This document shows, one piece after another, positions 1 to 19,013 of a stretch of 27,191 bases of DNA; positions within the stretch are counted from its first letter, which is position 1, and every line of letters begins with the position of its first letter. The translations under genes were made by a program, and so were the position numbers. Source of the stretch: a virus; IMG/VR virus record IMGVR_UViG_3300028829_003769, positions 1 to 27,191 of that record; one strand, written 5' to 3'. The notes below the pieces were generated by a model. The model saw nothing but the letters and a program-made list of their open reading frames with translations, did no database searches and was not told the origin of the DNA.

Positions 1-1607
1 TTGCTAGAAGATTATATAAACCTGAACTTGCAGATAAGTTTTTTGACTATATATGGAAAGGATGGTTATGTTTAGCTTCACCTGTATTATCTAACACAGG
101 AACAGATAGAGGTTTACCTATAAGTTGTTTTGGTATTGATGTTGCTGATAGCATTATGGATATAGGTAACAAGAATCTTGAAATGATGTTACTTGCAAAA
201 CACGGTGGTGGTGTTGGTATTGGTGTTAATATGATTAGGCCAGCTGGTGCTACTATAGCAGGTAACGGAACTTCAGATGGTGTTGTGCCGTTCTGTAAAA
301 TATATGATTCAACTATACTTGCTACAAATCAAGGCTCAGTAAGAAGAGGCGCTGCATCAGTTAACATAAACATCGATCACCCTGATTTTTTAGATTGGTT
401 AGAAATAAGAGAACCTAAAGGTGATGTTAACAGACAATCCTTAAATTTACACCAATGCGCTATTGTTGGTGATAAGTTTATGAGAAGACTTGAAGAAGGA
501 CAACCAGAAGCTAGAAAGAAATGGGCTAAGCTATTACAGAAAAGAAAAGCAACAGGTGAACCTTATATAATGTTTAAGGGTAACACAAACAAAGCTAATC
601 CAAAAGCATATAAGTATAATAGTTTAAAAGTCCATATGACTAATATATGTTCTGAGATTACACTACATACAGATGAGTCACATTCTTTTGTATGTTGTTT
701 ATCTTCTGTTAACTTAGCTAAATATGATGAATGGAAAAATAGTGATCTTATATATGACGCTACGTGGTTTTTAGATGGAGTGTTATCTGAATTTATACAA
801 CGTGCTAAAAATATGAAAGGTTTTGATAATGCTGTTAGATCTGCTGAAAAAGGTAGAGCGTTAGGATTAGGAGTATTAGGTTGGCATACTTTATTACAGC
901 AAGAAGGAATTGCTTTTGAAGGATTGCTTGCGCAATTTAAAACAAGAGAAATATTTTCACAATTAAAATTAGAAACAGAAAGAGCTAGTAGAGATCTAGC
1001 TGAAGTTTATGGTGAACCATTATGGTGTGTAGGTACAGGAATGAGAAACACACATTTAAGGGCGGTTGCACCAACAGTGTCAAATAGTAAATTATCAGGT
1101 AACGTATCACCTGGTGTTGAACCTTGGGCTGCTAATGTATTTACAGAGCAATCTGCTAAAGGTACATTTATAAGAAAAAACAATGAATTAAAAAAATTAT
1201 TTAGAAAGCTAGGTATAGATAATCAAAAAACTTGGGATAAAGTTTTAAAAGATAAAGGTTCTGTACAAGGCATAAAAGAATTAGATGGTTACTATTACGA
1301 TAATAGTGGTAAGCTTACTAAGGAAAAAGGTGGCGAACCAGTTAAAAATGTTTTCAAAACGTTTAAGGAAATAAATCAACTAGAACTAGTTAATCAGGCG
1401 GGAATAAGACAGACATATATAGATCAGTCTGTTAGTTTAAATCTTGCTTTTCCTTCACAAGCTGAACCTAGATGGATTAATAGAGTCCATATGGATGCTT
1501 GGAAAAAAGGAATTAAAACTTTATATTATATGAGAACTGAAAGTGTTCTCAGAGGCGATATTGCAGCTGAGGCAATGAATCCAGATTGCTTGAGTTGTGA
1601 TGGTTAG
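1..1607 (+). CDS. nrdA: Class I ribonucleotide reductase, large (alpha) subunit, 5'-truncated by window edge
   Basis: This enzyme reduces ribonucleotides to deoxyribonucleotides and supplies DNA precursors in the infected cell. The open frame already runs at base 3, so the ATG at 156 is internal and the real start lies left of the window. Visible family landmarks are ASPVLSNTGT followed by PISCF (the redox cysteine equivalent to E. coli C225), TNICSEI (the N437/C439/E441 active-site triad, with C439 the thiyl radical site), VCCLSSVNLA (partner cysteine C462), the SGNVSPGVEP loop, the LYY dyad (Y730/Y731, the radical transfer route) and a C-terminal CLSC pair that re-reduces the active site. 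The Tyr dyad argues for class I over class II. No small subunit gene is visible; it may lie to the left. This is the only + strand gene and probably belongs to the nucleotide metabolism or early module. All visible key residues are present, so it looks functional. Confidence 0.95.
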   Translation, partial: ARRLYKPELADKFFDYIWKGWLCLASPVLSNTGTDRGLPISCFGIDVADSIMDIGNKNLEMMLLAKHGGGVGIGVNMIRPAGATIAGNGTSDGVVPFCKIYDSTILATNQGSVRRGAASVNINIDHPDFLDWLEIREPKGDVNRQSLNLHQCAIVGDKFMRRLEEGQPEARKKWAKLLQKRKATGEPYIMFKGNTNKANPKAYKYNSLKVHMTNICSEITLHTDESHSFVCCLSSVNLAKYDEWKNSDLIYDATWFLDGVLSEFIQRAKNMKGFDNAVRSAEKGRALGLGVLGWHTLLQQEGIAFEGLLAQFKTREIFSQLKLETERASRDLAEVYGEPLWCVGTGMRNTHLRAVAPTVSNSKLSGNVSPGVEPWAANVFTEQSAKGTFIRKNNELKKLFRKLGIDNQKTWDKVLKDKGSVQGIKELDGYYYDNSGKLTKEKGGEPVKNVFKTFKEINQLELVNQAGIRQTYIDQSVSLNLAFPSQAEPRWINRVHMDAWKKGIKTLYYMRTESVLRGDIAAEAMNPDCLSCDG

Positions 1608-2701: not shown

Positions 2702-5700
2702 TTAATCTATTTTTTTAACTTTCCCTAATGATTTTACTTTACCTAAACTATTTGATTTTAGTTTTGGCTCCTTTTGCGTTGGTCCTAATTTAACGTCCCA
2801 TTCACTGTAACCAAGTGCTAACGCTACTGATTGCCATAATTCAGTTTCGTTGTCAGCTGCTAACACTAAGTTATTCCATTTCTTTATAGCTCTATCAGCT
2901 GGCAAGTTAAATAAAGCAGATAATAAATCCGCTCCAGATAATACCGCTGGATTTCTAGTGCTAACACCGAGCTCTTTCATTTTTTCTCTTTCTTGTTTGT
3001 ATGTAAATCTTCTTCCAGCTCTTAACATTTTTTGCAGCTTAGAGTTTATAGGTGGTGAAATAGCTGTTGTTGCAATTGCAGCTTTTTGAAAATCTTTTCT
3101 ACCTTTTTCCTGTTCAATAACTTCCATTATAACATTTTTAGTAGTCGCTGCTATAGCACCATAAACTCCAGTACCTATTAATATAGAGTCTGCCATTCTA
3201 TTACCTATATTAAAGAATCTTTCTTTTTTCTCGTCGTCTTCTTCATCATCAAAAGCTAAAGCGAATAAAGCTGTTTGTAATGAGTGGAAAATAATATTTT
3301 GTACTGCACCATAATATACTATCTTAGATATATTAGTTTTCCAGTCGCCACGGTTGTTTATAAGATCCATAACAGACTTTTTAATCAATCTGGTATATTG
3401 CATAGGTGTATTTTGAAAAGCTAATATAATACGTCCTAATGGACCAGCTTGTTGCATAGATATTCTATCTGGTCTTGAAGATTGCTGAGCGGCTTCTGTT
3501 AATTCAGTAAAATCTCTAAAAGCATTTGCTTCAGCATCTTTTTTAGATTGTCCTTCAGATGTATATTTATTTATTCTATTTCTGTACATTGAAGCACCAC
3601 CTACTGAAATTGCAAAACTATCTGCTATTTGTGTTGGTAAAAATCCTTTTTTAAGTATTGCTGCAAGTGCTGCTTTAATCTTATTGTTACTTCCTGCTGT
3701 TGCTTTAGCTATTTCATCAGCATTTACATCAGTCTTTAAACCAGATCTTCTAGATTTTAAAAAGTCTGAATTATATAAAAATGTAAAATCATTCCAAAAT
3801 TGTTTTTGATTCGCAATTGCAGCCCCAGCTTTTATAGGATTATTATCTGACCAGTTTATGTAGTTAAAATTAGATATTGTTTGGAGTAAAGCAGATCTTG
3901 TATTAAAGAACATTATAGTACCAACAGAATTATTTACCCAATCCATAAAATTATTCGTAAGACTGTCAGGCCCTACTATTCTATTTCTACCGCTTTTAAT
4001 TCTTGTTAATATATTTTCTAACGCAACAATATAGTCATTACCCATTGCGGCTCTTAATCTATTAACGTTATCTCCTTTTAGTTTGTTGCCAGATGTAAAC
4101 TCACCTATTGTTTGTTCTATATTATCAAAGAATGGTGTTAAAAATTCTTTTCTTGTTTTATCGTTAACGTGATCTAATAAATCTGTTAGCATACTTCCAG
4201 CTAACCAATCATTATCTGTTGGTTCAGGATAAATGTTTTCAGGAAATATTGCATCAAGCTTTTCCATTAATTTCATTGAATCAAAATCCTGTCTTACAGA
4301 GTTACTTATTCTTTGAGCCTCTTCAGGTGTTAATCCTGGTATTTCGTACCCTTTTAAATACCATATACGAGTTCTTATAGCTTGTTCTTTAGTAAAACCT
4401 GTAACAGTTGACTCAGCACCTAAGTCTATACCTATTTTTTTAATTTCCTTTTTAAGTACTTTTAAATTTTCTAAAGCTGTTTGCTTAGCGCCATCAAAAG
4501 CAATAATTCCCTCCGATAATGGTCTGTAAAAATTATCTTTAAACCATTTAGCGTTTGTATCACCTTGTTTACCTTTACCATATAAAGCATACATTAATCC
4601 CTCAAAATCTTCAGCACTATACGGCACAAATGGCTTGAATGTATCTTTTCTTTTACCTAATTGCCTAGAAGTAACATCACCTATTATATCTTCTACTTTT
4701 ATACCTTTAGAATATTCTAATATATCTTGAAACTCTTTTGCTATGCCTTTAGAAGCTAATAATTCATTTGCAATTGTAAATTCATTTGCTTTTGTATTAC
4801 TTTTTTCGATGCTTTTAATTCTTAATCCACCCGATATTGTCATACCTCTTCTACCGTTCTTTGAACCTCCAGGTTTTAATCTCATTTCAATTTGCATAGT
4901 TCCTTTTAACGGAGTAACATTTGTTCCCGTATCACCAATAGAATATAAAGCATTTTCTGCAGCATGATATAAAAAGTCTGTATCTGCATAATGAGATAAT
5001 ATAGGCCCTAAATTATCTAAAGGAATATTTACATTAGGAATTAAACCTTTTCCTTTTTCGTCATGTGCTTTAACATCAACACTTATTGCTCCTTTTGGGC
5101 TTAAAGTTGCTCCTGTTTTTTCTATATAAGTATTAAGAGCTTGAATAAAACCTTTTGCATTTAAAATATCAATAACTTTTTTAGCAACTGTATTTGTAAT
5201 ATTACCTTTGTTTAAAGTTAATTTTCCATCAATTAATTTTAAAGAAAAGCTGCCGTGAAAATCACCTTGCTTACTTTTAGCTTCAAAGGTTACTTCTTGA
5301 TTAGTATCAGGATTAGCTATGGTTATATCAGAACCCTCAGAATTACTTGGTCCTTTTAAATCACCTACCGGTTTAAATCCTGGATTATTTATTAATAATG
5401 TTTTCCTCGCGTTATATTCTCTAACATATGTTAATAAATGCTTTTTTGTGATAGGTTTACCAGCTTTAGTAGTTGGATAATCAGCAACTAATTTATTATA
5501 TATAGGATTTAGTATATCATTATCTTTTGTAATAACGGTTGGCTTAGGATCATAAGAAGCTATACGTTCATTAATTACTTTTTGTGTTTCAATTTCTACA
5601 CCATTATTATCAATTAAATATGTTTGACTTGCTAATAACTCAGACTTACCATCTTCAATTGTAAATATAACATTAGCATCTGCTCCGTCTGCTTTTAATT

Positions 5701-8700
5701 GCTCTCTTACTACACTATTAGTTATTGCTTTACCAATTTCTGATTCTAGCGCTGATATTGCTGTTTTTTGATTTCTTGTTTTTTCTTGCCCTGGTAATAA
5801 ACCAAATAATTCAAAAAATGTTTCTTCATTAAAAGGTTTTTTATCTCTAACAGTTAATCCTGCAGCAGTACCTTGTGCCATTGTAGCTCTTCCTTTTTCT
5901 TCATAAAAAGCTTTTTGTAATATGTTTTTTAAACCAGTAGCTGTTTTTAAACCTACCGCTCTTTTTCTTTGGTTTAAAGGCAGCATGTTATATAAAGCTT
6001 TTGCATTCTTTCTTATAAAAACTCTTTTATCTGGGAATGTTGCACCAAATATTTGTTTTGTAATATCAGGAGCTACATCTGTAAGTGTTTTATAATTTAA
6101 ATCGTATATGTCTGCACCTTCAAGAAATTGCTTAACCTCTTCTTTATACATATTTCTTACTTCAGGCTCAGCTACTAATCTTTCTAAAGGTCTAATTAAT
6201 TTTTTAGGGCCTTCTGTAACAGTTTGTGCAGGCGCAGCTTGATCAGCTATTTGAAGTCCTGGCCCTTCGCCTTCTTCTCTATCTTCAATTCTAGTCTCTT
6301 GTTTTCTCTGTTCACCTTCTTCAAATAAAGCTTTCTTAGCATCTAACTTAGCAAATCTTGCGTCTGACATTATTCTTTCGACAAATCCCTCTCTACCAAC
6401 TACACTACCATCAGATCTTACTTCTTCAGGATTAAATTTAAGAGCTCTGTTAACAACATTTTCAATAACTTTATCAGATTCAATTGCAGAAACTGATTTA
6501 CTTTTTATATAAGCCGCTATAGCGCCTGTATATATAGAGTTAAATAATTTAGCCCCTCCTTGTGATCGTACAAAAGCATCATATTGAGCTTTAGTTTTAA
6601 TGTTTTCAGGAAGTAAATTATTTATATTATTAAACAACGACGCAACTAACTCTGTATCTTGTGGCCCTGTAGTAGGCTTAATATTAGATAAAGCTTTTTC
6701 AAGCTGTGCAGTTATACCACCTTCTGAAACACCTTTTTGGTATTCTTTCATAAAGTTATATACTTGCTTACCGTTTTCAAATCCTATTTTTGCAAAACCA
6801 AGTGGTCTTAATACTTTTTCAACAATAAAGTTACCTATTTTAGTGAATAAATTGTCATCAAATTTGATTAATCCTTTTTGAACAGAATCACTATATACCG
6901 ATAAAAATTCTTTGTCAAATTGATCTTTAGTATATCCTCTATCTGTTAATTCTTTTACAACAACATCTGTTTGTTCTTGGCCTATAGTGCTTTTAAAATC
7001 TTTTATAACATTAGATAAATTATTACCAACGTATTTTTGCAATATACCATGTACAACCTCATGAGCCCCTACATTAATGTTTCCTGTTTTTGCAGCTATT
7101 TCTTCATTAATAAATATACTGTTACCTAAAACAAACCCACCTAAATCATTAATTTGTTTTTTCTGATTTGCTGTATAATTAATATTGTTATCATCTAAGT
7201 ATTTAAATACCTCATCTGTATTTTTTAATGTAACTTGATTAAACCCTAATTTTTCCGATGTTTCTTCTGCGAATGTTATTGTTTCAGCTACATTAGCTTT
7301 CATTAAGTTTTCTGTAAATACTTTTATAGGTGCATCGTCTTTAAGCTTACTAAAATCAATTTCATCATACTTATCTAGTATATTATCAATTTCACTTTCT
7401 ATTTCGCTTTTTCTTTTTTTACCCGCCCTAGTTTTAGGAGTACCTATACTTTCAAGCTCTGTTTCTAAATCTAATACTTTCTCTAAATCAGTTGTATTAG
7501 TAACCCTTGTTTCAACTTCTGCTTTCTTACCAAGTCTTATTGTCTTATCTTGTATTATTTTACTTATTTCAGGATTATTAGACACTTGAATTCTACTAGC
7601 TAAAAAGTCAGAATCTTCTGCATCAATCTGATCTAATACATCTTGTAACTGCGCTTTTTTACCGTTTATTTTATATTCTGGAGCATTAATCATTGCTGCT
7701 GCAATATTCACAGGCGCTGTTGCTGTTCCAGCTATACCTTCAAATCCAATTTCGGCTACATCCATTTCTTGTCCAGCCGCAATTCTACCCGCAACTTCTC
7801 CTGTACTACCACCTACAGCTTCAGTTGCTATCGCTGCAGTAGCTCCTCTAACACCTCTTCCCGCTGTAGTAAACGCTTTTCCAGCTAATCCACCTGATAA
7901 AGCTCTTCTTTTTAAGTTTTTATATCTATTTTCGTCGGCTAGTAATTCTTTAACATTAGCAAGACTAAAATCTTTGCCTTCCTTCTGTAATTCATTTTGT
8001 AATAATTCACCAAACGTTAAACCAGTTTCCATCGCACCACCTAAACCACCGAATAAACCAGCAAATCCACCAGGTATAGCTCCAACACCACCAAACCCTG
8101 CACCAACTGCTGCACCACCACCTGCACCTGCAATTGCTGCTTTAGCAACTTCGTCAGAATCTAATGCTGAACCAGCTAGCGTAGCCATAGAACTTACAAA
8201 AACCTGTGGTATAACACTAGGATTATTTAAAACACCTTTTATAAAACCCCAAACACCTTTACCTTCTTCTTCATATATCCTTGAAAAGTCACGCATTTCA
8301 TCTGACATTTTTGATCCTTGCGCTTTTTTATTAGCTCTAATAAAGTTTAAAATTGTTTTATCATCTGCATCAACACCTTTATTAAATACGTCTATATTTT
8401 CACCTACAGCTTGTGACTGTTCAAATCCCTGAACACCTGCTCTATATATATCACCAAAAAAATCAGTAACAAGATTTTTACCTAAAGCTCTTTCAATAAA
8501 AGTATCATCTTCTTGTGATGCCAACGAAGTATTTCCCAAGTTGGATCCCATATTGAGTGCTGTTCCCGGCTCCACAAACGCACTCGGATTCGTGGGTGAT
8601 GTCTTTGCTTGTATACTAGGGTTTTTTTGTAGCAATTCATCAAAGGTTATACCTTTTTTGTTTGCTGCTGTTAGCAAAGTGTCTTTAGTGTAAGTAACAC

Positions 8701-8722
8701 CATTAAGTATATATTCTTCCAT
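2702..8722 (-). CDS. Giant internal virion / ejection protein with HEVVH zinc-peptidase motif (T7 gp16-like by position)
   Basis: At 2006 residues this is the largest single protein here and the third of three consecutive ejection-type genes, the place of T7 gp16. Such proteins travel inside the capsid and are injected with the DNA to build a channel or act in the cell. Residues 1-45 form a small N-terminal domain, followed by a Pro/Ser/Asn-rich linker. A Gly/Ala-rich hydrophobic stretch at about 190-235 could insert in membranes. HEVVH at residues 554-558 in GAHEVVHGIL is a zincin-type HExxH site; downstream EFLSVYSD could supply the third ligand. A D1132...E1147-A-K1149 arrangement resembles a PD-(D/E)xK nuclease core but is weak. 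Near the C-terminus are hydrophobic helices and an acidic patch (DDEEDDE, about 1825). The reading frame is unbroken. The role is inferred from order, size and motifs; neither enzymatic activity is certain. Confidence 0.7.
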   Translation of the reverse strand: MEEYILNGVTYTKDTLLTAANKKGITFDELLQKNPSIQAKTSPTNPSAFVEPGTALNMGSNLGNTSLASQEDDTFIERALGKNLVTDFFGDIYRAGVQGFEQSQAVGENIDVFNKGVDADDKTILNFIRANKKAQGSKMSDEMRDFSRIYEEEGKGVWGFIKGVLNNPSVIPQVFVSSMATLAGSALDSDEVAKAAIAGAGGGAAVGAGFGGVGAIPGGFAGLFGGLGGAMETGLTFGELLQNELQKEGKDFSLANVKELLADENRYKNLKRRALSGGLAGKAFTTAGRGVRGATAAIATEAVGGSTGEVAGRIAAGQEMDVAEIGFEGIAGTATAPVNIAAAMINAPEYKINGKKAQLQDVLDQIDAEDSDFLASRIQVSNNPEISKIIQDKTIRLGKKAEVETRVTNTTDLEKVLDLETELESIGTPKTRAGKKRKSEIESEIDNILDKYDEIDFSKLKDDAPIKVFTENLMKANVAETITFAEETSEKLGFNQVTLKNTDEVFKYLDDNNINYTANQKKQINDLGGFVLGNSIFINEEIAAKTGNINVGAHEVVHGILQKYVGNNLSNVIKDFKSTIGQEQTDVVVKELTDRGYTKDQFDKEFLSVYSDSVQKGLIKFDDNLFTKIGNFIVEKVLRPLGFAKIGFENGKQVYNFMKEYQKGVSEGGITAQLEKALSNIKPTTGPQDTELVASLFNNINNLLPENIKTKAQYDAFVRSQGGAKLFNSIYTGAIAAYIKSKSVSAIESDKVIENVVNRALKFNPEEVRSDGSVVGREGFVERIMSDARFAKLDAKKALFEEGEQRKQETRIEDREEGEGPGLQIADQAAPAQTVTEGPKKLIRPLERLVAEPEVRNMYKEEVKQFLEGADIYDLNYKTLTDVAPDITKQIFGATFPDKRVFIRKNAKALYNMLPLNQRKRAVGLKTATGLKNILQKAFYEEKGRATMAQGTAAGLTVRDKKPFNEETFFELFGLLPGQEKTRNQKTAISALESEIGKAITNSVVREQLKADGADANVIFTIEDGKSELLASQTYLIDNNGVEIETQKVINERIASYDPKPTVITKDNDILNPIYNKLVADYPTTKAGKPITKKHLLTYVREYNARKTLLINNPGFKPVGDLKGPSNSEGSDITIANPDTNQEVTFEAKSKQGDFHGSFSLKLIDGKLTLNKGNITNTVAKKVIDILNAKGFIQALNTYIEKTGATLSPKGAISVDVKAHDEKGKGLIPNVNIPLDNLGPILSHYADTDFLYHAAENALYSIGDTGTNVTPLKGTMQIEMRLKPGGSKNGRRGMTISGGLRIKSIEKSNTKANEFTIANELLASKGIAKEFQDILEYSKGIKVEDIIGDVTSRQLGKRKDTFKPFVPYSAEDFEGLMYALYGKGKQGDTNAKWFKDNFYRPLSEGIIAFDGAKQTALENLKVLKKEIKKIGIDLGAESTVTGFTKEQAIRTRIWYLKGYEIPGLTPEEAQRISNSVRQDFDSMKLMEKLDAIFPENIYPEPTDNDWLAGSMLTDLLDHVNDKTRKEFLTPFFDNIEQTIGEFTSGNKLKGDNVNRLRAAMGNDYIVALENILTRIKSGRNRIVGPDSLTNNFMDWVNNSVGTIMFFNTRSALLQTISNFNYINWSDNNPIKAGAAIANQKQFWNDFTFLYNSDFLKSRRSGLKTDVNADEIAKATAGSNNKIKAALAAILKKGFLPTQIADSFAISVGGASMYRNRINKYTSEGQSKKDAEANAFRDFTELTEAAQQSSRPDRISMQQAGPLGRIILAFQNTPMQYTRLIKKSVMDLINNRGDWKTNISKIVYYGAVQNIIFHSLQTALFALAFDDEEDDEKKERFFNIGNRMADSILIGTGVYGAIAATTKNVIMEVIEQEKGRKDFQKAAIATTAISPPINSKLQKMLRAGRRFTYKQEREKMKELGVSTRNPAVLSGADLLSALFNLPADRAIKKWNNLVLAADNETELWQSVALALGYSEWDVKLGPTQKEPKLKSNSLGKVKSLGKVKKID

Positions 8723-11296: not shown

Positions 11297-11617
11297 TTAA
11301 TTACTGCTTATAAATATTTCTGAATTAACCGCAAACAGTTCTGCATGGGCTTGTGAATTGTTTGTGAAAGTTACTTCTGCATAATATCCTATTATACCAG
11401 AGGTGTTTATTTCACTATCTTTTGAAAAGAATATATAACTAGTAGAAGTTAACTGTGTTAAATTACCATCTACAGTGCATGTAATGGTGTTGTCAGTAAA
11501 TCCTGCTACTGGTCCTATTCTAAGTACATTATCACTAGAACCTAAATAATAAATAATATCTCCTATTTGTAGGGAAGAATTCTTACTAAATGTAGTATCT
11601 AATGTTATTTGACTCAT
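11297..11617 (-). CDS. Small conserved phage protein, probably structural, unknown function
   Basis: This 106-residue protein looks all-beta and has no membrane segment or catalytic motif. It begins with a segment like a small beta-barrel (LQIGDIIYYLGSSDN, then IGPVAGFTDNTITCT), and ends with GYYAEVTFTNNSQAHAELFA. From memory, the closing pattern (GYYAEVxxxNNSxxxAELF) recurs in a family of small proteins of marine phages, usually near tail or virion genes. It lies between the glycosyltransferases and the ejection proteins, so a minor virion component is the best guess. A perfect 16-bp palindrome (11624-11639) lies just upstream and reaches into the end of the previous gene. Specific role unknown. 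Confidence 0.6.
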   Translation of the reverse strand: MSQITLDTTFSKNSSLQIGDIIYYLGSSDNVLRIGPVAGFTDNTITCTVDGNLTQLTSTSYIFFSKDSEINTSGIIGYYAEVTFTNNSQAHAELFAVNSEIFISSN

Positions 11618-11627
11618 AATTCTATTA

Positions 11628-12122
11628 TTACGTAATAATTTTTATACCTAATTGCTTGATAATCTTATATTCTTCTTCTGGTTTATGTACTGTACCTCTT
11701 TGCTCGTTATCACCATAATGGTGTTTATCTTTATCCCACCAGTCAAAACCAATTATGTCGACTTGAAAATTAAAATAATATATAGCTATTAAGCCAGTAC
11801 TTGGGGTTTTTACAGGTATAGATTTTATAATATCTTTTGGTATTTTAACTGCATCGGGTCTTGCTTTTTTAATTTGCTTATAAATTTTACAATCATTTTC
11901 ATGCGCCCAAGAATGAAACAACACCTTGCTATACACATCTATCTCGTTTATATGTAACATATTACAAGTAAACCATATATCAGTTTTAGTACCAACATAT
12001 TCTTCGTAGCCCTCAATCTTATAGCTATTAAACCTTACAACCGTATCGTAAGAGTCAATAAGATCTTTTCTTTTATTATCGAGCATGCTACTTCCATTAC
12101 CCACTAATAATATTTTTTTCAT
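11628..12122 (-). CDS. GT29-like (sialyltransferase family) glycosyltransferase, compact form
   Basis: This 164-residue protein resembles the catalytic core of family GT29. The N-terminal KILLVGNGSSML (residues 3-14) and DTVVRFN (26-32) look like sialylmotif L. PSTGLIAIYY (107-116) with DIIGFDW (122-128) looks like sialylmotif S. H146 and E151 in HKPEEE match the H-x4-E of motif VS, whose histidine is the catalytic base in characterised GT29 enzymes. It has no membrane anchor, unlike eukaryotic members, and is far shorter, but compact bacterial and phage relatives exist. Donor and acceptor cannot be read from sequence; CMP-sialic acid or a related nonulosonic acid is suggested by the family only. 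Its ATG overlaps the stop of the upstream glycosyltransferase (ATGA at 12119-12122), so the two are probably translated together and act on the same substrate. Confidence 0.7.
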   Translation of the reverse strand: MKKILLVGNGSSMLDNKRKDLIDSYDTVVRFNSYKIEGYEEYVGTKTDIWFTCNMLHINEIDVYSKVLFHSWAHENDCKIYKQIKKARPDAVKIPKDIIKSIPVKTPSTGLIAIYYFNFQVDIIGFDWWDKDKHHYGDNEQRGTVHKPEEEYKIIKQLGIKIIT

Positions 12123-13021
12123 GATAAAGCTTTTTTAACTATATCATAATAATAGGCCGATGCTTTTGTTTCATCAATTTCTAAATCCAGCTTAGGTAAT
12201 TCGTTCATATAATCACCTTTATAAAATAATCCTTCTTTACCATTAATAACACCTGCGTTGTGCAGTATATTAGCTGAACCTAACTTTTCATATTTTTGAG
12301 TTGGCCATATAAAATCCATTTCCTTAACTATACGTGTGGGCTTTGCTAGTTTCCAAAGATTCCATAATACAGCCCACATATCAGCACACCATATTTGTAA
12401 TTCGTGGTACTCAGGCTCTTTTTCTTTTCTTTTATTGTTGTACTGTGTTACACCATAATAAAGCATTTCGCTATCCTCTTCTACGTTTCTCCAGTATTCC
12501 GCATTTATATTTTTAAATAAATATTGTGCACCCCCTGAGTTGTGTTGATTAGCTCTAACTTTACAAGAACAAATATCTACTATGTTACACATAAGCTCCA
12601 CTACCTCATTACCTTTGCTTTTTATATATTCATACCCAATATATGAAACAGTGTCAGATAGATAAGTTATATCATCTTTTAAATAAGCATTAAGCTCTAA
12701 TGGCCTCATTAAAACAATATCGCAATCGTGATAAAATATAACTTCATTTTCAAGTTCTGGAAACGCTTCAAAATGTTTAGCTAAAACATGAGGTCTAATG
12801 CTTGATATATACATTGGTTCTTCCCTTGTATCAGGATAGTAATAAAAATTAGCCTCGTATTTACTTTCTAGTTTTGAAAAATAATCGTCAATAGGGGTTT
12901 TGTATGATGACACAATTATTACATCTTTTAGGTCTATACCTATATCTCTAAAATTGTAAAGCATTGCGTCTAATTGCCAACCATAATATTTTATAGCCGG
13001 CTGTGCGCATAAGTATTTCAT
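12119..13021 (-). CDS. GT-A fold glycosyltransferase with DxD motif
   Basis: This 300-residue soluble protein has the hallmark VIFYHDCDIVLMRPL, where D99-C100-D101 is the DxD site that holds the metal and nucleotide sugar in GT-A enzymes. Later conserved-looking segments are QHNSGGAQYLFK (159-170), where family members contact the acceptor, LQIWCADMWAVLW (208-220) and LHNAGV (253-258), whose His may complete the metal site. The overall pattern reminds me of the peptidyl serine / hydroxyproline galactosyltransferase group, so a protein acceptor is possible, but this is from memory and not tested. There is no signal peptide or membrane segment. It follows the Thr-rich tail protein gene by 14 bases and overlaps the GT29-like gene by ATGA. 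The job is inferred to be modification of a virion protein or a glycan. Confidence 0.75.
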   Translation of the reverse strand: MKYLCAQPAIKYYGWQLDAMLYNFRDIGIDLKDVIIVSSYKTPIDDYFSKLESKYEANFYYYPDTREEPMYISSIRPHVLAKHFEAFPELENEVIFYHDCDIVLMRPLELNAYLKDDITYLSDTVSYIGYEYIKSKGNEVVELMCNIVDICSCKVRANQHNSGGAQYLFKNINAEYWRNVEEDSEMLYYGVTQYNNKRKEKEPEYHELQIWCADMWAVLWNLWKLAKPTRIVKEMDFIWPTQKYEKLGSANILHNAGVINGKEGLFYKGDYMNELPKLDLEIDETKASAYYYDIVKKALS

Positions 13022-13035
13022 TTTATTTTATTTTA

Positions 13036-16000
13036 TTATGGACAATTAAGACTTGTAATAAGTGTTAATGATACTCCATTCCATCTATAATAATTTCCTC
13101 CTCCAGGTGATTCAGAATAATACCTAGTACCTGAAGCTAAACTTGTACAAGAACTATTAGTATAAATAGCTGTTGAATTAGCCAACCCATTACCGTTACC
13201 ATATATTGTTCTTAAACTTCCATTACCACATAAATCATTAAGTGCGGTACTACTTGTTGCTGGGTCAACAGTCGTGTAATAAACATCAATTGCGAAACAA
13301 GTCTGAGCTGTTGTTGACGTTGTTGTGGTTGTAGGTAGATTGCTAGCACAGTCTGTACAGTTAGCACCTACTGTGCCAAATGTATTATACACAGTATAGT
13401 TTGAAATATCTTGTCTTGGTGTTCCAAGGTTATTACTGGTCCATTGGAAACAATCCGAACCGTTTGATATTACACTACTTGCTGATATAGAGCTTGAACT
13501 TTCAACCCATATAACTTGTCCATTAGGATCACCACAGGTTACAAAGCTAGCATAATTTGTTGTTCCACCCGTACCTGTATTTATTGAAGCACCGTTTGAA
13601 CAAGTAACCTGTGCATTCGTATTATCCCAAGCGGCTTGATTATCAGAGAATGTAAATGTTACAAACACATTACCAGAACCAGCAGTCGCTGATTGAGGGC
13701 TAAATGAATGGACTGTAGTTGTGCTTCTTGTAGGCGTACAAGTAATTACTCCTGTAGCAGAGTTCCAGCCTAAAGTTACCCAATCTCCATAAGTGTTACA
13801 TGTATATGTACCTAATGGACATGTTGTATAATTAGATGGTTGTATTACACCGAATTGTGTGTATTGGTTTACAGTTGCGTTTGTTGAAATCACTCTAAGT
13901 TGTATTCCATTACTTTCAACTATATCATTAACACTAAATAATCCTGAGCCAGAACCTTGAATACTTCTATATAAAGTATTAGTTGTACAGTGTTCTAATC
14001 CGTAATAAGATGTTGGTGGAGAAGGACAGTTTGTTTGACCTGTATTAGTAACGTTTGTTAACTTAGTACCTTGATAAACCTGTGTTGTACCAGTAACTTT
14101 ATAATACATATCTGTAGTGTTGTCTTTTATTCTATCACCTACATTCCATGCGCCTAATGTTATTGTTGATTGAGATGTTATTATACCTGTTGCTAAAGTA
14201 AAACATTGTTGCAAAGTATAATATTCCGTAGCTAACCACGAAACATCATGAGTGTCTGTAACTGTTCCATCAATAGTAACTTGGTACGTATAACTACCTG
14301 CATATGATTCTGTAAATTCTATTTGTTTTACAGCAAAACCATTAGCATTAGACGTTCCTTGCGGCGACGCTGTTGCTGTCCAAGACCAGGATGACCCTGT
14401 AAAATCATTATCTTCTCCAACTAAAATTATGCTTTGACCTATAGTTGCTTGCGTTGGTCCGGTAATTGTTGCCGTTGGTGGGGTTTGAGTAGTTGTAGTG
14501 CTTATTCCAGTACAAGCTGAACAGCTGCTATGACTTATATAATCATAAGTTAATGTGTTTCCTACACAAGTTCTAGATAATACCCAGTCGTTATCTTGAT
14601 TACCTGTTCCTGTTTGCGGATCTCCATAACATACACCTGTTAATCTATCTTCTACTACTGTTGGAAATCCAGATGATGAATTATTACCTAATGTTATAAG
14701 TGAATCACCCCCACATTCTCTATATTCTCTCCAAGCAGTTAATGTTGGTTTTACCGGTTCTGAACATGCTAATGTTGTTGGAGGAGATAAACAAGTACTT
14801 GACGTGCTCCAAACCTCTTCTACCGGTTCATAATATCTATATGTGGTTCCATCTGTATAATAACCTTCCGCTGAGTAAGTAGATGTGTTAATATCAGATA
14901 TTGAATCATACATGTAATCGCTTGTTGTTGCAGTTGTAAAAGAAGCGTTATTATCAAAATAATAAAACCCTTGCACCCCGTTTGAAGTGTTACATAAATC
15001 CTGAGCAGGGTTAAAGCCTATTCCTAAGAAAATTAAACTCTGTGCGTCTATACAATTAACACAAGCACTAAAGCTACTGCCATCCCAATATCTTCTTTTT
15101 GTATTGTCACCATTTAAAGAATAATAACCCGCTGGAGCCGCTACTGAACAATCAGCGTAGGTGTATAAGTCAGTCAAACTACAAAAGTTAGTTTGTGTTT
15201 GAGCTAAATTAGCCCCATTACCATAATATGAAGTGGTAGAAGATGCTGATTCACAAACATTACTCGAAGTTGAATATCTTAAAGTAAATAAAGATTTAGT
15301 CGCTAAACAAAAGTCTGTCGTTGTTGTAGTTGTAGTATAAGTTGTACTTACAGTTAACGCATTATTACAAGTCAACTGAGTGCCTGTGTTATTCCAAGAT
15401 GGATTACTATCTGAAAAAACATATGATACAAACACATTACCTGTATTAGCTGTGGCTGTTGTCGGTGTGTAACTATGAATAGTTGTTGTACCTAAAATAG
15501 GTGTTACTGTTATCGCCCCCGTAGCCCCATTATAAGTTGCTGTCGCCCAAGTTTGTGTACTACAAGTATAATCACCTACCGGCGCTGTTGTAGTGGTAGT
15601 TGTAGGAGGAAGTGTCGTTGTAGTAGTAGTCGTAGGGGGCAACGTTGTTGTTGACGTTGATGTTGTTGTTGTAGTAGGTCCCGCTGTAGTAGTAGTGGTT
15701 ATTTGTGAAGAACCAACAATATTACCTAAACCTTGAACATTAAATTCCTTAGAATCTAATCCACCTAAATCATCTTTTAAATATTCGCTTGGCGCAATAT
15801 TTGAAATACCTGTAATATTAGCAAACCATTTGCCTTCCTTCTCTATAAACTCTAATACCTGCCCTTGCTGCTGGTCTGTTTCAATAATATCAGCATCCCA
15901 ACCCGGAGCTGTTCCTTGCTTAGCTTGAGTACCTTCATAAGATATTGTCTTATAATTTTTAATTTCTGATGGCTCTTGATTAAGTATTAGCTTTACACTA

Positions 16001-16896
16001 GACCCGCTCTGAATTCCAAAAAAGTTATTTCTTAAAGCAGCTGGATGATGGTGCTGATATAAATTACCTCCGTTAAACGTAAAGAAAATACCGTTTATTG
16101 ATATACCGTTTTCAATTTCAAAATCTAATCTTGAAACCCATCCATCTACATTTTCTTTAAAAGAAAAAGTTTCACCCGCTAAGGTAATTAAATATTGATC
16201 TGTATACTTATCCCATATACCAAATATTTGAGAGCCGACTGGATGTTGATTAAATTTATCTCTAAACCAGCTTTTCATTCCTTTAGAAGATATTACGGTT
16301 ATTCCGTTTTTAGATAACCTTAAAATAGCGTTTCTAGCGCTATCAGCCCAGTATAATGTATTGCCATCGAATGCAAATGATTCAGGATTTTTAGAAATAC
16401 CATAATCACCAGAGTAAGGCGCTGCAGATCCCAGTATTTTAGCAGTTGCAACTAAGTTAGTTGTACCATCAGCATTAAAAAGCAAATCTCTTTGCGCTTG
16501 TATTGAAACTATTTTATCTTCACATAAAGCTATTAAATCTGTTGTTTTAGCAAATAGCAATTGTATGCTACCGTAATCAGGATTTATATCTTTAGTGTTA
16601 CCACCACCTGGTGGAAATTGATTTAAATAATTTATATTTGTTCTAGAATTATAAACACCTGAATAAATTAAACCTGTTTTTCTAGTTGTTTCATTAAATG
16701 GTATTATTGATGGTGCAGAAACCCTTACTTGTTTATCTATAAGATCTTCATTAAAATCATCTTTAATTCTATTTGATTCAACTCCATCACCAAAATCAAA
16801 AGCATTATACCATCTTAAAGTTTTAGCTCCACCGCTGGATAATAAATAACTATCTTCAGTTTCATAATATATATCTAATACAGATTCGTCTGGCAC
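13036..16896 (-). pseudogene. Tail nozzle/adhesin, C-terminal part (frameshifted from the gene upstream)
   Basis: This is the distal 1286 codons of the tail protein begun in the 16875-19013 frame. The nominal GTG at 16896 is probably not a start: the same frame runs back to the junction at 16935 and reads VTATNATPAVFET just before it. From memory, the PAVFET...LDIYYE motif and the following NGVESNRI-type and YGISKNPESF segments occur in one continuous protein in related marine phages. Parts in order (residues of this frame): beta-propeller-like hub region 1-395; Thr-rich linker 400-437; module A 441-515; second Thr run about 519-527; Cys-rich module 528-611 and a relative 619-698; Ig/PKD-like domain about 802-888; paired YYxLxxC modules 890-957 and 963-1027; second module A 1030-1100; Thr linker about 1185; third Cys-rich module 1198-1286. 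It is likely a receptor-binding tail part, functional only if the frame is joined. Confidence 0.75.
15586..15700 (-). repeat. Low-complexity ACA/ACT repeat encoding mucin-like Thr-rich linker
   Basis: This stretch is nearly all threonine codons (ACT, ACA, ACG, ACC) broken by LPP, AGP and STS spacers. It encodes residues of about 400-437 of the C-terminal tail frame. Two shorter Thr runs occur later in the same protein (before FCLATKS, about residue 525, and in LPTTTTTSTTA, about residue 1188). Such linkers are extended, and are potential O-glycan acceptor sites. The varied codons show the protein pattern is kept and is not just a recent DNA slippage. Confidence 0.9.
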
Positions 16897-19013
16897 TGTT
16901 TCAAATACAGCTGGTGTTGCGTTAGTAGCTGTAACCCCAACTCAACCCATATTTCATTTATCGTTCCTATCGTTCCATCTACATACCCATTTATGTTAGG
17001 TGTTGTAAGTTGTTGCCATGTACCTGTTATAGATCCACAGGATGTTGTTGGATTTGTTACAGCTGAATTTGCATTTGCAGTTAATAAGCTTGTACCATAA
17101 CTTCCAGATGGATAATAATGTATTTGGCCATCTTTATATAAATAGGTTTCTTTTGAAGTATCATTTGGAACATCAGCTTCACCTAAAAATAAATAGCTGC
17201 TTAAATTACTAGGAGCAGTTGTGTAGTAATTAAAATCAGAATCATCAAGAATACCATCAGCACCACCTGTACCGATTGATTGCTTTAATAATGTTGATGC
17301 TGCATTTGCTTTTATTTTTACAAAAAACTTCCCATCAAATGTATTTACCGATGTTATACTGTCTGGTTTCTGCCCTGATATGTCTAAAACCTTATATTTT
17401 AATTCATCAGAAGTATAAGTGCCTATAGGTGAATTACCATTACTTAACTTTTTAAGTATAATAGTGTCATCGTCTTTTATCTTATTTATTTCATAAGTTG
17501 GTATAACAAGCCAAACGTGCTCTTCGTTTTCTTCATCGTCATATACCGCATCTATAATAAAGTTATAATATTCTTCTGAACTTTCCTTTATAAAATATCT
17601 ATATTTGTGAATTCTGCCATCTGAATTTGTTGGCATAGTTGTTAGCTCTACATTAAGAGCTTTTGCGGTACCGTCATATGTGTCAAAAGATTTTCTATAT
17701 ACACCTTGTTCACTTGTATATACAGGACTCTGTCTACCATATATATCTTCAAATACAACACCAACTTGATATTTTCTTCCTGATTTAATCGTTCTTAAAT
17801 TAGATAAGTTTTCGGGTGCAACATTATTATCTGCATCATTTACCTTAGCTCTTGTGCTTTCTGTTATTGTAAATGTAGGTGAGTAGTCGCCTATATTAAT
17901 CCCTGTAGTGTAGTTACCAAAAATAACTCTATTAGCTATAATATCTAAAGCTTTAGCTTTTACAGGTACATTATCATACGCTCTAAATAATTGTTCCTCT
18001 GGTAAAACAGAAAAAATACTTTCTTCTTTATTATTTATTTGATGTGTTGGAGGTTGTGCGGGATTTAAACCTGTTATTGTTTTATAAACATACACATTAT
18101 TATTTCCGGCCTCCTTATATAATATATCAATCGCTGCAGCATCATCGGGGACATCAAACCCACTTATAGTTATTTTTTGTATATTGTTAACCATTCTTTC
18201 ATTATATCCCTCTTCAACATTGTAAAAATAAGTGCTTGAATCAACACGCGGGTCAAATACAGGCTCACTAAAAGGTGAATAAGCAGAGTATTGTCCATTA
18301 GTAAATCTCCATCTATAACCAAACCTTATAAACTTTTCTTCATATATTGTATCAGTATCACTTGAGCCAGTACTAATATAATTAGTTAATGCTATAATTG
18401 GAGCGGAAGATGGTTTTTGCTTTATTAAAGTTAAATGCTGCTCTTCCATGTTAGACAAAACGCCTTGTGTACTTGGAATTTTGGTTTGATCAGAATAGCT
18501 TTTAGTACTATAGGTATTATACGTTTCAAATGTATTTAAATCAATCAACTTAGGCTCTGATGTGTTGTCAGTCCACATTAATAGCTTATCTAATACTTGT
18601 ATGGATGTAATTTGTGTATCTGTGAATTTAAGGGCTGTGCCTGCAGTATCTATAAGCACAGGAGTGATTGCGGAATCAATTAAATTTGCATTGATGTCAC
18701 CAGCATTAGTGTCTCTAGTATCATACTCTATTATACCTTGTTTTGTATTAGTGTTTATACCTTTAAAAAACCAATATAATTTATCATTTTCAGTGTCTGC
18801 TACACTACCAACACATTTAGATTCACCAATTAGCGAAGACATATTTTTTAATATTCTATTACCTAATACGTTTTGAATAGTACCAGCATTACTATCTTCA
18901 GATGAAGAAACCTGAACGTTAAGCGCATCTCTGTACTCACCATCAGGCAGCAATCTCTCATCGAGGTCTTTATTCATTCTTCCCCTTAAGAAAGTCTTTT
19001 TAATTTCAGGCAT
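16875..19013 (-). pseudogene. Tail nozzle/hub protein, N-terminal part (frame broken at a G4 run)
   Basis: The first 712-codon frame of the giant tail protein starts MPEIKKTFLRGRMNKDLDER and continues LLPDGEYRDALNVQVS; from memory this opening is typical of a large structural protein of marine podoviruses. A beta-rich fold with YWFFKG and LLMWTDN repeats suggests the propeller of a nozzle or hub (role of T7 gp12 or P22 gp10). True homologous sequence appears to end at residue 693 (EIWVELG). The last 19 residues (LQLLTQHQ... to the stop at 16875) look out of frame. At the GGGG run (CCCC at 16935-16938 on the + strand) one added G, or a -1 slip on GGG, joins it to the downstream frame and gives about 1992 residues. 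The start ATG at 19013 lies 4 bases after the stop of the 297-residue gene. Confidence 0.75.

Follow-up and report, generated by a model that had tools for sequence, protein, structure and literature searches.

Virion glycosylation by phage-encoded glycosyltransferases is already known in mycobacteriophages (Freeman et al. 2023, PMID 37329881, cited in PMC11256854 and PMC12619734), and the citing accounts report the glycans on the C-termini of capsid and tail-tube subunits. Going by those accounts, this is also where most of the threonine (Thr) tags described below are located, on structural proteins encoded near a protein family of unknown function, phrog_4417. The systems differ in that the capsid (MCP) and tail (MTP) proteins of mycobacteriophage Che8 have no poly-Thr tag, unlike those of the phages with phrog_4417 considered here. 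No Mycobacterium phage was present among the 74 phage records matched by phrog_4417 with tblastn, and neither homologous enzymes nor acceptor tails of the mycobacteriophage type were found. The citing accounts, as far as they describe the mycobacteriophage system, mention no enzyme of family GT29, unlike the window analysed here (the whole stretch of DNA studied, a virus record of 27,191 bases), which encodes one.

The scheme proposed below also resembles mucin-type O-glycosylation, in that both the tracts of the window and the tags of cultured phages are acceptor sequences of the Thr/Ser/Pro kind, and in that a first transferase would be followed by a capping GT29 enzyme. It differs in its acceptors, which are virion proteins made in bacteria, and in its first enzyme, a GT-A fold protein without a Pfam or PDB sequence match that is not a detectable homologue of the GT27 polypeptide GalNAc-transferases. 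Bacterial GT29 enzymes are known (PMC5811610). The GT29 enzyme of the window has the fold and the sialylmotifs L, S, III and VS in common with the CAZy GT29 sialyltransferases ST6GalNAc2 and ST3Gal1, and is phage-encoded and much shorter than the matched chains (164 aa vs approximately 270–300 aa).

We interpret the window, with a probability of about 0.72, as carrying a virion-protein glycosylation cassette in a crAss-like muzzle (tail-end) gene, in which the GT-A enzyme would start and the GT29 enzyme would extend a Thr-linked glycan.

Genomic context and structure of the muzzle gene

The minus strand of the window carries a block of structural genes comprising terminase (phrog_6681), portal (phrog_6547), a capsid-type virion protein (phrog_13704), adaptor, other virion proteins and muzzle (phrog_14478, Pfam crAss_MUZ_C). 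Among named phages, those of Cellulophaga and Flavobacterium, phi38:1 for example, came closest in the N-terminal part of the muzzle. Because of this structural block and the affinity of the muzzle N-terminal part, the window was assigned to a crAss-like podovirus of Bacteroidota, with both the Bacteroidota host and a marine habitat considered probable. The structural block also contains a 2006-aa protein (2702–8722) that matches phrog_32588, of unknown function, only in part. At the window edge, a truncated ribonucleotide reductase large subunit gene (3–1607, plus strand) adjoins a minus-strand endolysin gene.

The features relevant to the muzzle and the proposed cassette are as follows.

16875–19013, minus strand: muzzle N-terminal part, matching phrog_14478 from positions 1–343 onward
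13036–16896, minus strand: muzzle C-terminal part, matching phrog_14478 positions 906–1385 and PF25729 (1.2e-7); body to aa 391 (with crAss_MUZ_C), Thr-rich extension at aa 392–1286
15556–15714, minus strand: main Thr/Pro tract and proposed acceptor, aa 395–447 (53 aa), where the inserted extension begins
13285–13356, minus strand: Thr tract LPTTTTTSTTAQ near the C-terminus, aa 1181–1204
12119–13021, minus strand: GT-A fold glycosyltransferase, 300 aa, proposed Thr-tract O-glycosyltransferase (phrog_4417, 1.8e-69)
11628–12122, minus strand: compact GT29 (sialyltransferase family) glycosyltransferase, 164 aa, identified from PF00777, fold and motifs
11297–11617, minus strand: last muzzle domain as a separate 106-aa gene behind the cassette, matching phrog_18548 positions 147–237
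11618–15722 (approximate limits), minus strand: cassette of Thr-rich muzzle extension, GT-A and GT29, flanked by the muzzle body and the last muzzle domain

Membership of the crAss-like muzzle family was indicated by the matches to phrog_14478 and crAss_MUZ_C, and the position of the gene within the structural block fits. An initial reading from the sequence alone (hereafter the sequence-only reading) had taken the open reading frame at 13036–16896, with a GTG start at 16896, as a complete tail gene. This was rejected, since the frames at 16875–19013 and 13036–16896 match opposite ends of one family, phrog_14478, and the muzzle frame is continuous across the junction in a relative of 90 % identity (L423); the shorter frame is only the C-terminal part of the muzzle. 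In two further relatives, L002 and L003, the muzzle is likewise a single frame, 2661 aa or more in length. The break lies near 16900–16950, in the interval 16875–16960; approximately 48 nt present there in L423 are missing from the window, with a resulting shift of frame. The break is either a natural deletion or an assembly error, and intact copies exist in relatives. Programmed frameshifting was judged unlikely, as no slippery heptamer is visible and L423 is approximately 48 nt longer at this point.

The presence of Thr runs in this frame, claimed in the sequence-only reading, was borne out: in addition to the long tract at aa 395–447, smaller tracts are found at approximately aa 470–485, 509–536, 795–816 and 1181–1204. 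These tracts use mixed Thr codons and are therefore not a simple DNA repeat.

A cassette inserted into the muzzle gene

The related locus L424 encodes a 1491-aa muzzle without a Thr tract and has no GT-A gene. This muzzle aligns with the frame at 13036–16896 only to aa 391, where the Thr-rich extension begins, and its last 96 residues (1396–1491) align with the separate window gene at 11297–11617 (41 % identity, E 5e-19), which is also 28 % identical to the C-terminus of Cellulophaga phage phi38:1 gp97. Since the alignment is broken at aa 391 and resumed in the separate gene, an ancestral muzzle gene is interrupted by approximately 4.1 kb. Insertion as one block, before the last domain of the muzzle, thus brought in the Thr-rich extension, GT-A and GT29, and it is this block, at approximately 11618–15722, rather than the span 11628–16896 proposed in the sequence-only reading, that forms the unit. 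The muzzle body and the structural gene order are common to the window and the described crAss-like muzzle (phrog_14478; phi38:1 gp97), whereas neither phi38:1 nor L424 has Thr tracts or GT-A, and in the window the 4.1-kb cassette splits off the last muzzle domain.

A similar arrangement was observed in L002, where the end of the muzzle is again a separate gene behind GT-A and GT29 is absent, and in L104, where another Thr-bearing gene, GT-A and GT29 directly precede a phrog_18548 gene. The comparison of tag and enzyme presence within the muzzle family itself comprised three loci and is too small to be read.

The GT-A enzyme

The first enzyme matches phrog_4417 over aa 1–298 of its 300 residues (E 1.8e-69), and members of this family in cultured phages match at 1e-70 to 1e-156. 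The DCD motif noted earlier at residues 99–101 was recovered, with D99, D101, H254 and G257 invariant across 43 homologues. The AlphaFold (AF2) model has a mean pLDDT of 96.8, and its best Foldseek matches were the UGGT catalytic domain, glycogenin and alpha-1,3-galactosyltransferase (E approximately 1e-6 to 1e-5), in agreement with the GT-A fold proposed from the sequence. These three families are GT-A enzymes that retain the anomeric configuration. A GT-A fold with a DxD motif and a candidate metal-binding histidine (H254) is consistent with the retaining GT-A transferases (GT8, GT24, GT6); at sequence level the protein did not group with GT8, GT24 or GT6, and there was no significant match in Pfam (for any of the 43 members), NCBIfam or PDB sequences. 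The gene spacing given in the sequence-only reading was correct, with the genes at 11628–12122 and 12119–13021 overlapping by 4 bases and the GT-A start lying 14 bases from the upstream frame.

Association of GT-A with Thr-rich structural proteins

The 80 GT-A loci nearest to that of the window, together with the window itself, formed 38 clusters at 80 % identity, 36 of them with an upstream gene. In this marine set the gene before GT-A was Thr-rich, defined as eight or more Thr in 16 aa, in 28 of 36 clusters, compared to 16 of 348 other open reading frames at the same loci (Fisher p 3e-24, with loci that are not phylogenetically independent). Four more of the 36 had a Thr-rich frame elsewhere in the locus, and the remaining four had none within the DNA retrieved. 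When segments rich in Thr, Ser, Pro and Ala were masked, the upstream proteins sorted into 16 groups, among which no homology was detectable; several of these groups are Thr-rich, and what they have in common is therefore the Thr runs. The reverse association was rejected: GT-A was found in only two (L178, L211) of 120 loci from a DNA pattern scan for poly-Thr, and the implication runs from enzyme to tract. As poly-Thr is common in viral contigs without GT-A, Thr tracts must have other uses or other enzymes.

The family is also present in cultured phages of Lactobacillus, Enterococcus, Staphylococcus, Lactococcus and others (the 74 records above), where it often directly follows the major capsid or major tail gene. 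Thr runs were found within approximately 3 kb of GT-A in all 15 cultured-phage records examined, from Lactococcus, Enterococcus, Lactobacillus, Staphylococcus and Chryseobacterium, two of which (bIL285 and LT985578) are near-identical. These runs are usually C-terminal tags on MCP, MTP or both. In phage 1706, MCP and MTP each terminate in T9-10-HHD, and in bIL285 GT-A follows MCP with the tag on MTP 1.3 kb away. In a sample of 296 genomes from one bacterial order, phrog_4417 was found in six, and in each of these a structural gene close by encodes Thr runs. The tags are encoded by two to four different Thr codons, and selection therefore acts on the protein.

To compare tagged and untagged relatives, homologues of four MCP/MTP families were gathered regardless of GT-A and scored where the locus was long enough to judge. 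Tag and GT-A were both present at 97 loci and both absent at 66, no locus had GT-A without a tag, and five had a tag without GT-A, in a table that is highly redundant and holds approximately five independent contrasts, too few alone for formal significance. At three of the five exceptions the contig ends just after the capsid gene; at L398 the tag is present with no GT-A in reach. Within the iLp84 family, capsid proteins that are 94–99 % identical are found both in tagged form with the enzyme and in untagged form lacking it. In the comparison with phage phiFL1A, a homologous tail protein of 82 % identity lacks the tag, and the genome that encodes this homologue lacks phrog_4417 throughout. Trees of the tag-free core sequence gave one, one and two independent contrasts (the two rising to as many as four with weak branches), and wherever the tag differed the direction was always the same.

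The GT29 enzyme and its donor

The GT29-like identity proposed earlier for the second enzyme, with L, S and H-x4-E motifs, was upheld. The window protein matches PF00777 (E 4e-14, 53.1 bits, cut-off 23), as do all 22 of its homologues, in which sialylmotifs L, S, III (HHYxD) and VS (H146-x4-E151) are kept. Invariant residues are G8 N9 G10, R30 F31 N32, G44, S108, G110, H135 Y136, H146, P148 and E151. A single-sequence search recovered no relatives, and the homologues came from an alignment-based search. The AlphaFold (AF2) model (pLDDT 93.5) was closest in Foldseek to human ST6GALNAC2 with CMP (6apl; E 5e-7, TMq 0.71), with 31 PDB chains at E <0.001 led by GT29 enzymes, and a profile search of PDB sequences likewise found ST6GALNAC2 and ST3Gal1. 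The enzyme is thus likely to transfer a CMP-activated ulosonic acid.

In five lineages (the window, L010, L013/L014, L019 and L104) a Thr-bearing gene, GT-A and GT29 come in direct succession, and the two enzyme frames overlap in all five, the only lineages that possess both. L102 and L105 have GT29 after a GT2 enzyme (with a methyltransferase intervening in L105), downstream of a gene whose product reaches 16/16 in its best Thr window. Some dozen homologous GT29 genes, with 46–53 % identity, come from T4-like phages in which no Thr-rich gene lies within reach, most of them alongside a GDP-mannose dehydratase gene, and GT29 is absent from L002 and L003, which hold the closest relatives of the window GT-A.

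As to the donor, Kdo is at least as likely as sialic acid for three reasons. Kdo is made by most Gram-negative hosts. On the T4-like contig L088 a KdsB-like CMP-Kdo synthetase gene (7076–7837) lies just upstream of GT29, near a GDP-mannose dehydratase gene, and sialic acid as sole donor was dropped after this finding. The plant GT29 enzyme RCKT1 is a Kdo transferase (PMC11288761).

Proposed mechanism and alternative explanations

In the proposed mechanism, threonines in the Thr/Pro tracts of the extended muzzle would receive their first sugar from the GT-A enzyme, which would probably draw on a nucleotide sugar, for instance a UDP-sugar. To this sugar the GT29 enzyme would then add an ulosonic acid activated by CMP, either Kdo or a nonulosonic acid resembling sialic acid. 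The tail tip would thereby bear a stalk that is mucin-like and stiff, resists proteases and carries negative charge. This stiff, protected stalk or coat is something we infer, as are the reactions themselves, which sugars are used and in what order, and the advantage to the phage. Glycosylation of the Thr tracts by GT-A is very probable on comparative grounds, because of the gene order, the Thr runs in all the cultured phages examined, the co-variation of tag and enzyme and the insertion as a block; the sequence-only proposal that this enzyme adds a sugar to the Thr runs of a virion protein thereby gains strong comparative support. Extension of the GT-A product by GT29 with an ulosonic acid is the weaker step, since relatives of this GT29 gene are also found where Thr-rich proteins are lacking, and is judged somewhat likely. 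The earlier proposal of a nonulosonic acid cap agrees with the fold, the motifs and the position behind GT-A, but sialic acid is not favoured over Kdo. The co-occurrence with Thr runs expected among related phages was seen for GT-A, and broke down in part for GT29 at the T4-like loci.

Those T4-like loci, with their dehydratase neighbours and in one case a KdsB-like gene, and the lack of GT29 in L002 and L003 are what might be expected if only GT-A acted on the Thr tracts and GT29 were a passenger acting on LPS or on glycans of the host surface, for instance with Kdo-like sugars against superinfection. We consider this unlikely given the five lineages in which the GT29 frame overlaps the end of GT-A after a Thr-bearing gene, the recurrence of GT29 after GT2 behind a 16/16 Thr window, and the position of the window GT29 within the inserted cassette. 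The tracts might instead be plain flexible linkers, with teichoic acid, LPS, DNA or another protein as the GT-A target and the association reflecting a conserved operon position. Poly-Thr is indeed common in viral proteins without GT-A, and GT-A often sits just after the major capsid gene, which is a conserved site. However, tag and enzyme are gained or lost jointly where the remainder of the capsid or tail protein is 80–99 % identical, tags accompany GT-A on structural proteins lacking detectable homology, and a GT-A gene after MCP can pair with a distant MTP tag, as in bIL285, all of which makes a linker role improbable.

The sequence-only reading had also raised the alternative that both enzymes alter host surface glycans against superinfection, which would make the adjacency to a tail gene accidental. 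Phage-encoded serotype-converting glycosyltransferases are well known. Nevertheless, no flippase or polyprenyl-transfer partner was seen adjoining the genes in the window, neither enzyme has an obvious membrane segment in its sequence, and the structural-gene location and tag co-variation of GT-A disfavour this explanation to the point that we give it very little weight.

Possible generality of the proposed Thr-tract glycosylation

With odds put a little above even, the glycosylation reading may be extended to phrog_4417 as a whole, as a dedicated Thr-tract O-glycosyltransferase of a portable, tag-directed system shared by phages that infect Firmicutes, Bacteroidota and marine bacteria. Approximately 6–12 Thr on any capsid, tail-tube or tail-tip protein would recruit the enzyme, and interchangeable second enzymes (GT29, GT2, GT32-like, radical SAM, methyltransferase) would finish the glycan, in the window by means of a minimal GT29 with CMP-Kdo or a related ulosonic acid. 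The literature searched, with most subscription papers and all bioRxiv preprints outside reach, held nothing relevant on poly-Thr phage proteins, nor any account of a poly-Thr acceptor rule, of phrog_4417 as the enzyme, of its spread over unrelated phages or of a phage GT29 partner. Sugar-coating of particles via Thr tracts looks like a widespread, previously unnamed phage strategy.

If correct, this would assign a role to a phage protein family that is widespread but at present of unknown function, account for the poly-Thr tails of many capsid and tail proteins, and extend virion glycosylation well beyond mycobacteriophages to phages that include common dairy and gut phages. The 164-aa GT29 would serve as a minimal model of the sialyltransferase fold. 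As near-identical capsid proteins exist in tagged and untagged form in species kept in the laboratory, glycosylation of the tags is directly testable.

Other genes are also found next to GT-A. Known glycosyltransferase genes follow GT-A in 13 of 41 cases, compared to two of 32 for poly-Thr genes generally (p 0.009). At many loci the gene immediately behind GT-A belongs to a family of approximately 291 aa starting MRIISAKYGGVDCT (L062, 4721–5596, and homologues) that matched nothing in Pfam or PHROG, and proteins of approximately 345 aa with starts like MNIKDKIIADFQKHKISQMQLDPNG occupy this position in L004, L017, L018, L040, L042 and L063. Radical SAM/SPASM families are among the Pfam matches of GT-A neighbours, and possibly carry out another modification of the same Thr tracts.
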